Below, piece after piece: positions 2,384-4,988 of a stretch of DNA of 64,000 nucleotides; position 1 is the stretch's first letter; the number at the start of each line of letters is the position of its first letter. Origin of the DNA: SAR86 cluster bacterium AG-422-E19 (GTDB taxonomy: Bacteria; Pseudomonadota; Gammaproteobacteria; Magnimaribacterales; AG-339-G14); the NCBI GenBank assembly GCA_003213595.1, contig QCMR01000001.1:90015-154014 (forward strand), written 5' to 3'. The notes beneath the pieces are model-generated. The model saw nothing but the letters and a program-made list of their open reading frames with translations. It did no database searches and was not told the origin of the DNA. The position numbers and the translations under genes are program-made.

Positions 2384-2405
2384 GTCTCAAAAGTGTAAAG
2401 ATGTA

Positions 2406-2461
2406 TGAGACCAAAGGAATAACTCTTTCAAAAGAAGTTAAGAGTTTATTCCTAGGTCTCA
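2406..2461 (+). promoter_or_regulatory. Large intercistronic hairpin between glnII and ntrB
   Basis: TGAGACC (2406-2412)/GGTCTCA (2455-2461) enclosing AGGAATAACTCTT (2415-2427)/AAGAGTTTATTCCT (2440-2453, one bulge). Confidence 0.65.
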
Positions 2462-2503
2462 ACATTTCTTGTTCCATAAATTTAAATTTAATGGTTTTCA
2501 GAG

Positions 2504-3598
2504 ATGATTTTTTTTGAAAATATCTTAGATGAGTTATCAGCAAAAATTCTTGTTACTGACGATAACTTGGATGTCCTATTTCTTAATAAATCAGCTGAAG
2601 ACTATCTGTGTGCTACTCTTGAGGAATCAAAAGGAGAAAACATAGACAAAGTTTTTAAAGAAAAAATTAGTAATGAATTGGAACTCCAAGAGATTTTAGA
2701 GAATAAAAAGTCCCTTAAACGTCACATTACAACAATTTTTTTAAAAGACAATCTTCAAAAAAAAGCTTCTTTCACTGCTTCCTATTTTGCTAATGAAGAA
2801 TTCAAAGGAATTATTTTTGAATTTTTTGATAATTCTAAGCCGGAATCTATAGCTGATAAAATGAAGAAAAGAACTGCAGCATCGGTAACTCAAGCCTTCT
2901 CTAGAGGACTTGCGCACGAAATCAAAAATCCATTGAGCGGTATTCGTGGTGCAGCTCAGTTACTGGCTCAAAAAATTGAAGATCCAAAGAAAAATAAATT
3001 AGCAAATATTATTCTCAAGGAGTCTGACAGACTTGCAGGCATCGTAAATAAAGTTTCTGATAATGGTTTTAAGCTAGAACAGACTTTTCAAAACATTCAT
3101 ACCATCCTGGAAAAAATTCCCGCTTTTGTAAAAAACATTGAAAATCAAAAGGTCCAAATTGTTAAGGATTATGATCCTAGTTTGCCTCTAATTGAAATCG
3201 ACAATGCTCTTATTTCTCAAGTATTTTTTAACTTAGCGACCAATTCTATTGAAGCGTTTAAAAAAAATAATTCTTCAGGAAAAATTACTATAAGAAGTAG
3301 AGTTACTTATGAAGTCTTCATTAACAACAAAAAATATAATACCGCCTGCCAAGTAGAATTTATTGATAATGGTCCGGGCATTCCAGATGACATTATTGAC
3401 TCTGTTTTCTTCCCTTTAGTTTCATCAAAAGAAATTGCCTCAGGATTAGGTTTGTCTATTGTTAAAGGAATCATCAATCAGCACCATGGATCTATTGATT
3501 GTTCTAGCGATGACACAGGAACAACATTCACAATTCTTTTGCCTATTTCAGAAATAAACTTTGAAAAGACAAAAGCAAGCGAAGGAATAAATGGCTAA
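2504..3598 (+). CDS. ntrB: Nitrogen regulation sensor histidine kinase NtrB (GlnL)
   Basis: PAS region, H-box RGLAHEIKNPLSGIRGAAQLL, DNGPGIPDD and GLGLSIVKGII; followed by ntrC. Confidence 0.93.
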   Translation: MIFFENILDELSAKILVTDDNLDVLFLNKSAEDYLCATLEESKGENIDKVFKEKISNELELQEILENKKSLKRHITTIFLKDNLQKKASFTASYFANEEFKGIIFEFFDNSKPESIADKMKKRTAASVTQAFSRGLAHEIKNPLSGIRGAAQLLAQKIEDPKKNKLANIILKESDRLAGIVNKVSDNGFKLEQTFQNIHTILEKIPAFVKNIENQKVQIVKDYDPSLPLIEIDNALISQVFFNLATNSIEAFKKNNSSGKITIRSRVTYEVFINNKKYNTACQVEFIDNGPGIPDDIIDSVFFPLVSSKEIASGLGLSIVKGIINQHHGSIDCSSDDTGTTFTILLPISEINFEKTKASEGING

Positions 3599-4988
3599 AA
3601 ATAAAAAAATCTGGATTGCCGATGACGATGAATCAATAAGATTTGTTCTAGAATCAGGTTTATCAGAAGCTGGTTTTAATGTTTCGACTTTTGAAGACGG
3701 TAACGAAGTTGTAAATAAGTTAGACATCGAATCACCCCATCTTTTACTTACTGATCTAAAAATGCCGGGTAGAGATGGAATGGATTTATTAGAAACTTTT
3801 CGTAATGAGCATCAAAAAATTCCCATTATTATTATGACCGCACATTCCGATTTAGATACTACTGTAGATGCTTTTGAAGCAGGAGCTTGGGATTACATAG
3901 CCAAACCTTTCGATTTAAATACAGCAATAGAAAAAATTAATAAGGCTATCTCTGAAAAGAAAAATGTTCAAAAGAAACTTACAGAAAAAGAAGAGATAAG
4001 CCTCAGGGCAGGAAAGATTCTTGGAAAGTCACCTGCTATGCAAGATCTGTTTAATTCCATAGGTAAATTGTCTCACTCTGACAGCACGGTATTATTAGTC
4101 GGTGAGTCAGGAACCGGAAAAGAATTAGTTTCTCAAGCGATTTTTGAGCACTCAGATAGATCCAATAAAAAGCTTATTTCGCTTAATGTAGCTGATATAC
4201 CTGTTGAGCTATTAGAGTCTGAATTATTTGGTCACGAAAAAGGAGCATTCAAAGGTGCCGGCGATCAGAGAATAGGTAGATTTGAGCAAGCTGATAAGGG
4301 AACTTTATTTTTAGACGAAGTTGGGGATATGCCCCTAGAAACTCAAACGAGATTAATAAGAGTTTTATCAAGTGGTGAATTTTATAGAATTGGGGGAAAT
4401 AGCCCTATTAAAGTTGATGTCAGGATTATTGCTGCTACAAACCAAAATCTCGAAGAAAAAGTTAGAAATAGATCATTTCGAGAAGATCTTTATCACAGGC
4501 TTAATGTCATTAAAATAAATTTACCTCCTTTGAGAGATAGAAAAGAAGATATTCTTTTATTAACTAGTTATTTCTTGAAGAAGTTTTCTGAAGAAGCAAA
4601 AATCAAAGTTAAAGTTCTCAGCAAAGAAGTTGAAGAGTTATTTGAAAATTTAATCTGGCCTGGAAATGTTTTGCAGTTACAAAATGTTTGCCAGTCACTA
4701 ACTTTATTATCCTCTGGTCAAGAGATTTCAATAAGTGATATTCCTAAAGACCTTTCTTTGCAGCGTAAAGGTCCAGAAATGAGTTGGAGCGACATGCTTG
4801 AATCATGGGCATCAAAAAAACTTCTTAAAGGTGATCATCATATTCTGAATAGCGCTACTCCGATATTTGAAGGAACTATGATTAAAGCAGCGCTGAAAGT
4901 GACAAAAGGTAAAAAAAGTGAAGCAGCTAAGCTATTGGGCTGGGGAAGAAATACTCTTGCTCGAAAGATTACTGAACTCGACCTTTAA
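3591..4988 (+). CDS. ntrC: Nitrogen regulation response regulator NtrC (GlnG)-like AAA+ activator
   Basis: REC domain (WIADDDES, LLTDLKMPGRDG), Walker A GESGTGKE, Walker B GTLFLDEVGDMP, Fis-type HTH at the C-terminus; GAFTGA replaced by GAFKGA. Confidence 0.93.
   Translation: MAKNKKIWIADDDESIRFVLESGLSEAGFNVSTFEDGNEVVNKLDIESPHLLLTDLKMPGRDGMDLLETFRNEHQKIPIIIMTAHSDLDTTVDAFEAGAWDYIAKPFDLNTAIEKINKAISEKKNVQKKLTEKEEISLRAGKILGKSPAMQDLFNSIGKLSHSDSTVLLVGESGTGKELVSQAIFEHSDRSNKKLISLNVADIPVELLESELFGHEKGAFKGAGDQRIGRFEQADKGTLFLDEVGDMPLETQTRLIRVLSSGEFYRIGGNSPIKVDVRIIAATNQNLEEKVRNRSFREDLYHRLNVIKINLPPLRDRKEDILLLTSYFLKKFSEEAKIKVKVLSKEVEELFENLIWPGNVLQLQNVCQSLTLLSSGQEISISDIPKDLSLQRKGPEMSWSDMLESWASKKLLKGDHHILNSATPIFEGTMIKAALKVTKGKKSEAAKLLGWGRNTLARKITELDL

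Follow-up and report, generated by a model that had tools for sequence, protein, structure and literature searches.

The region between glnA and glnL (ntrB) of enterobacteria carries a Rho-independent terminator of moderate strength and the GlnZ sRNA (PMC9731577). In E. coli, loss of this glnA 3′ terminator leads to a slightly lower level of GlnA, with NtrC nearly constant (PMC9731577). Of 34 E. coli gene pairs in which the first gene is stabilised, 26 end at a stable hairpin that has no U-tract (PMC5927463).

Here we describe the spacer between glnII and ntrB in a SAR86 gammaproteobacterium with a genome of ~1.1 Mb, starting from a 64,000-nt stretch of its DNA, hereafter the window. SAR86 counts among the most abundant groups of bacteria in surface ocean waters. 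One of its members has now been cultured (PMC11582366). SAR86 genomes are so compact that a structured spacer of 120 nt within an apparent operon stands out, and the site presents a structure that selection has retained across an order while the sequence turned over. Our main reading, to which we give a probability of about 0.62, is that a single stable hairpin at 2400–2466, just 3′ of glnII, acts as a barrier between the cistrons and so holds glnII mRNA at a higher level than ntrBC.

The glnII-ntrB spacer and its hairpin

The gene order, identified by Pfam and NCBIfam, is a YqiA-like esterase gene (726–1301), glnII for a type II glutamine synthetase (1403–2383), ntrB for the nitrogen regulation sensor kinase (2504–3598) and ntrC for the response regulator (3591–4988); the last three, and all features given below for the window, lie on the + strand. 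The ATG start of glnII at 1403 is backed by relatives, and the GlnII model is the top match to its product, yet with a score under that model's cut-off. The original prediction, in which glnII (stop 2383) and ntrB (ATG 2504) had been named from the sequence, agrees with both databases. The spacer (2384–2503) is unusual for this contig, as its 120 nt compare with a median of 2 nt and a 90th percentile of 70 nt for co-directional gaps in the 395-kb contig C1, which was the only background for gaps and gene 3′ ends and whose genes came from a simple ORF caller.

The large stem at 2400–2466 consists of 5, 7 and 13 bp and has a folding energy of about −27 kcal/mol. At its base, GATGT (2400–2404) pairs with ACATT (2462–2466) in a partly conserved stem, above which TGAGACC (2406–2412) pairs with GGTCTCA (2455–2461). 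The inner stem, formed by AGGAATAACTCTT (2415–2427) and 2440–2453, encloses a 12-nt loop of variable sequence (2428–2439), and the inner, outer and basal 3′ arms together occupy 2440–2466. The outer stem and the 13-bp inner stem had both been proposed originally and are borne out in the fold, the latter with one bulged base, while the basal pairing makes the structure longer than had been described. The remark that there is no textbook U-tract also holds: the 3′ side reads ...CAACAUUUCUUGUUCC, and the tail past the last GC pair, ATTTCTTG, has five T in eight positions and lies partly within the stem.

The fold exceeds chance, with a z-score of −4.0 for a 134-nt segment and −5.75 for the 68-nt hairpin (−27 kcal/mol), and 0 of 200 shuffles were as good. 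Of the 255 co-directional gene 3′ ends in the 395-kb contig, that of glnII, taken as the first 100 nt past the gene, ranks second by z-score and third by energy. Scans of the window spacer revealed neither a consensus intrinsic terminator, a GC-rich stem followed directly by at least five U in eight positions being absent, nor a sigma-70-like promoter site. An Rfam covariance-model search of the window returned tRNA only and nothing near threshold in 1290–2620; a known RNA family or riboswitch was rejected, as no match exceeded the gathering score. A repeat element was likewise discarded, since the spacer has a single match in its own genome and others only within the genus, and no phage match to the spacer was found.

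An alignment of 13 distinct congeneric glnII-ntrB spacers demonstrated that the large stem is a real, conserved RNA structure. Standard pairs fill 194 of the 195 cells of the 15-pair core (99.5%), and five pairs show two-sided compensatory changes, two of them in the outer stem and three in the inner stem, whose first eight pairs are common to all 13 congeners. The compensatory substitutions called for by the original prediction are thus present in this stem. The core covariation score of 0.266 compares with 0.138 ± 0.017 in shuffles, none of 500 being as high, and with at most 0.067 in slid registers; RNAalifold independently gave the same structure, with 23 pairs of which eight have two-sided changes. 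One-sided departures in the core comprise ten G·U and no A·C, the pattern to be expected if selection acts on the + strand RNA. Furthermore, genera g10, g16 and g18 carry another hairpin, unrelated to this one, that is 97.2% paired, with two-sided changes in 6 of 11 pairs and four G·U to no A·C departures. A DNA palindrome or transcription-factor dyad was rejected on this count of 14 G·U versus 0 A·C over two clades, and the better folding of the + strand in 54 of 80 spacers also counts against it.

The original prediction had centred on mutually exclusive hairpins, in which 2384–2389 and 2455–2461 would compete for 2406–2412 and switch between two regulatory states by attenuation. GTCTCAA is indeed present twice (2384–2390 and 2456–2462), although the window as a whole holds ten copies against 9.3 expected by chance. 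Partition functions for the growing window transcript place the probability of the upstream pairing, 2384–2389 with 2406–2411, near 1 up to ~71 nt and at 0 by 80 nt, so that it dominates the partial transcripts; at full length the large stem (−23 to −27 versus −6.3 kcal/mol) wins completely. This upstream pairing is perfect in the window genome only and mismatched in the other 12 congeners, its first and fifth of six pairs being non-standard in 9 of 13 congeners and its fourth in three of the four closest genomes; it hardly forms in L006 and L007, the two more distant congeners examined. None of the 13 congeners carries a two-sided change in it, and the two alternative pairings are not both conserved among them. 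Thus the sequences stand and a transient pairing is possible, whereas the competition of two GTCTCAA copies for one partner fails by the refuting condition that the original prediction had set itself, showing neither covariation nor conservation among the congeners. Attenuation by such a switch is almost certainly not the function of the spacer, and the competing hairpin is best seen, on the folding model, as a transient intermediate of the window's small immediate clade.

Persistence of structure with sequence turnover in SAR86

Spacers were then gathered at the genus, family and order levels. Among 80 distinct SAR86 glnII-ntrB spacers, 79 have a z-score below −2 and 72 below −3, and the 80 fall into 29 groups without any common 12-mer. 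It is therefore the structure, not the sequence, that has been maintained across SAR86, while the sequence has been replaced again and again. Within the window's own genus, the two most divergent members, G012 (L032) and G013 (L031), have spacers of 161 and 217 nt with a hairpin that differs from that of the window, both sharing the core AACTGTTGCTGCC.

The form and placement of the hairpin vary widely. Some SAR86 spacers are textbook terminators and others have no U-tract, the order ranging from none to eight T; in several genera (e.g. L080, L083, L134, L144, L164) a GC hairpin is followed by seven to eight T directly before ntrB. The distance from the hairpin end to the ntrB start is about 1–10 nt in families f2 and f3 and 37 nt in the window's genus. 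In many genera the core ends 5–13 nt before ntrB, so no promoter fits between them there, and transcription of ntrBC must either pass through the hairpin or begin within glnII.

This variable distance bears on the idea that the hairpin masks the ntrB start site or governs translational coupling. The close approach of the hairpin to ntrB in f2 and f3 would suit such a role, but in the window's genus it lies 37 nt from the ATG, and no Shine-Dalgarno-like sequence precedes ntrB in the window. As the distance is unconserved and the window lacks such a sequence, start-site masking cannot be the shared function, and we consider it extremely unlikely as an explanation of the element.

Loci in which glnII has a different neighbour were also surveyed. 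In SAR86 members without ntrBC (family f4 and genus g11), a T-tailed hairpin is often found at the end of glnII. At L064, L145 and several of L089–L143, which cover some members of SAR86 genus g4 and loci titled Pelagibacteraceae, the place of ntrB after glnII is taken by another glutamine synthetase-like ORF. As a control, spacers between glnII and a second glutamine synthetase were only partly clean: those of 14–17 nt in SAR86 L064 and L145 have no hairpin, whereas several alphaproteobacterial glnII-GSI spacers of ~75 nt fold, so that a hairpin can follow glnII whether or not ntrB comes next.

The NtrC circuit and the glnII promoter

The sigma-54 gene, rpoN, was found in 0 of 16 genomes of the window's genus and 0 of 7 of genus g3, and most of the tested f2 and f3 genomes encode a full-length sigma-54. 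In genera g2 and g4, all that is left in ten genomes is an ORF of 78–91 aa with the C-terminal RpoN box (L256:2356–2592, L257:2353–2589, also L261–L270), which in the two loci read occupies the usual place of rpoN, between lptB and an mgtE-like gene. Weak matches of this mini-RpoN query in genus g1 were dismissed as chance, as they run antisense to other genes with long open frames.

The NtrC proteins track this distribution, and so does the glnII promoter. In the window, GAFKGA replaces the sigma-54-contacting GAFTGA, as it does in all five genomes of the genus that were read (NtrC loci L227–L255). The NtrC of sister genus g3 is a protein of 256 aa with receiver and HTH domains, from which the AAA+ domain has been deleted. 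NtrC proteins that accompany a full-length sigma-54 have GAFTGA or GSFTGA, and those of g2 and g4 have GAFTGA.

Two NtrC-like sites lie upstream of glnII, TGTACTAAAATAGTGCA (1294–1310), which overlaps the stop of the preceding gene, and TGCACTATTTTATAGCA (1338–1354). They are followed by an extended −10-like element, TGTTAATAT (1362–1370), that is conserved in the family in place of the sigma-54 −24/−12 element. The latter was found at the glnII promoter in 16 of 21 f3 loci versus 0 of 22 in the window's family, all 22 of which have the extended −10-like TGnTA, 24 nt past the second NtrC half-site wherever that half-site is intact. From these motifs, the glnII promoter of the window's family appears to have switched from the sigma-54 to the sigma-70 type. 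In Rhodobacter and Caulobacter, NtrC proteins without GAFTGA act with sigma-70 (PMC10274813). If such a switch took place step by step within a gammaproteobacterial order, it would make a more compelling story than the hairpin does.

Possible function and comparison with known systems

In the proposed mechanism, an NtrC-controlled promoter would drive glnII, and part of the transcription would continue into ntrBC. From ends created by an endonucleolytic cut further downstream, or by leaky termination at the hairpin, 3′-5′ exonucleases could proceed only as far as the hairpin, so that a stable glnII mRNA would stay and the ntrBC part would decay. The outcome would be much enzyme and little regulator from one promoter. 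A stable hairpin between co-directional first and second genes is what such a decay barrier calls for, and one is found here (z-score −5.75, rank 2 of 255, covariation). Nearly all of the genomes encode PNPase and RNase E, which fits a decay barrier and/or a leaky terminator lowering ntrBC relative to glnII. Precedents come from E. coli, in the effect of its glnA 3′ terminator (PMC9731577) and in its hairpin-bounded gene pairs (PMC5927463). Cotranscription, a 3′ end of the mRNA at the hairpin and the glnII:ntrBC ratio that would follow are inferred; the model predicts glnII mRNA 3′ ends at the hairpin base and glnII levels above those of ntrB.

The same arrangement could be chiefly a leaky intrinsic terminator, which would stop transcription with moderate efficiency and leave ntrBC to readthrough only, decay protection being minor. 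The T-tailed hairpins of several SAR86 genera, the five T of eight in the window tail and the moderate strength of the enterobacterial glnA terminator (PMC9731577) all speak for it. In the window's genus, however, the T-rich bases sit inside the basal stem and are interrupted (ACAUUUCUUGUUCC), the consensus scan of the window site was negative, and most members of the order have no T run. A predominantly terminating role is thus a possibility that we consider unlikely. Termination may still be compatible with the sequences, since the hairpin tails match true 3′ ends of this genome in T content (on average 4.2 versus 4.3 T of 8). As it has no clean U-tract, the hairpin of the window's genus more probably acts, in our view, by protection from decay than by termination; across SAR86 the two modes probably interchange, since other genera have textbook terminators at the same place.

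GlnZ is released from the same place in E. coli and Salmonella (PMC9731577), and the hairpin could by analogy form the 3′ end of a 3′UTR-derived sRNA whose seed would be the moderately conserved TCTCAA..GTGTAAA before it; within the genus, spacer columns 1–16 are 72% identical, as against 58% past the hairpin. We set this reading aside as very unlikely, since searches of 61 SAR86-order genomes (G000–G060) detected no Hfq and no ProQ (0/61 each), with a positive E. coli control; there is also no common seed outside the genus and no U-tail.

An intercistronic barrier therefore remains our preferred account. The original proposal that an RNA structure sets the glnII:ntrBC ratio by 3′-end protection, processing or leaky termination emerges as the best-supported reading, by covariation and order-wide presence, shorn of attenuation by competing repeats. 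A broader version is more speculative and, as a whole, rather improbable: that the hairpin is the main enzyme:regulator ratio device in Hfq-less, streamlined SAR86, where selection would keep a hairpin at this place as its sequence is repeatedly replaced, and terminator and decay-barrier modes would switch as lineages rebuild the NtrC circuit, as with the sigma-54 loss in the window's family.

Like the enterobacterial glnA-glnL region, the SAR86 locus places a strong hairpin immediately after a glutamine synthetase gene and ahead of ntrBC; the sequence of the spacer diversifies while the hairpin stays, and the synthetase mRNA is likely stabilised. It differs in enzyme type (II in SAR86, I in enterobacteria), in the lack of a clean U-tract in the window's genus and in the absence of Hfq and ProQ; no separate ntrB promoter was recognised, and there is no homology between the two. 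Glutamine riboswitches (glnA RNA, downstream-peptide RNA) are also RNA elements tied to nitrogen genes in marine bacteria; unlike them, the hairpin has no Rfam match even at E 5, lies 3′ of the synthetase gene and is unconserved in sequence between genera. Ordinary SAR86 intrinsic terminators occur at the same site in some genera with 7–8 T, but the T stretch of the window is interrupted and within the basal stem. As in malE-malF, Rhodobacter puf and the E. coli set (PMC5927463), a stable hairpin, in the window one without a clean U-tract, follows the leading gene of an apparent operon, the gene whose product is required in surplus; unlike all of these, the SAR86 hairpin is held at one site order-wide despite repeated sequence replacement. 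It is an ordinary kind of device at a place where one is expected, and what sets it apart is chiefly that it has persisted while its sequence turned over.
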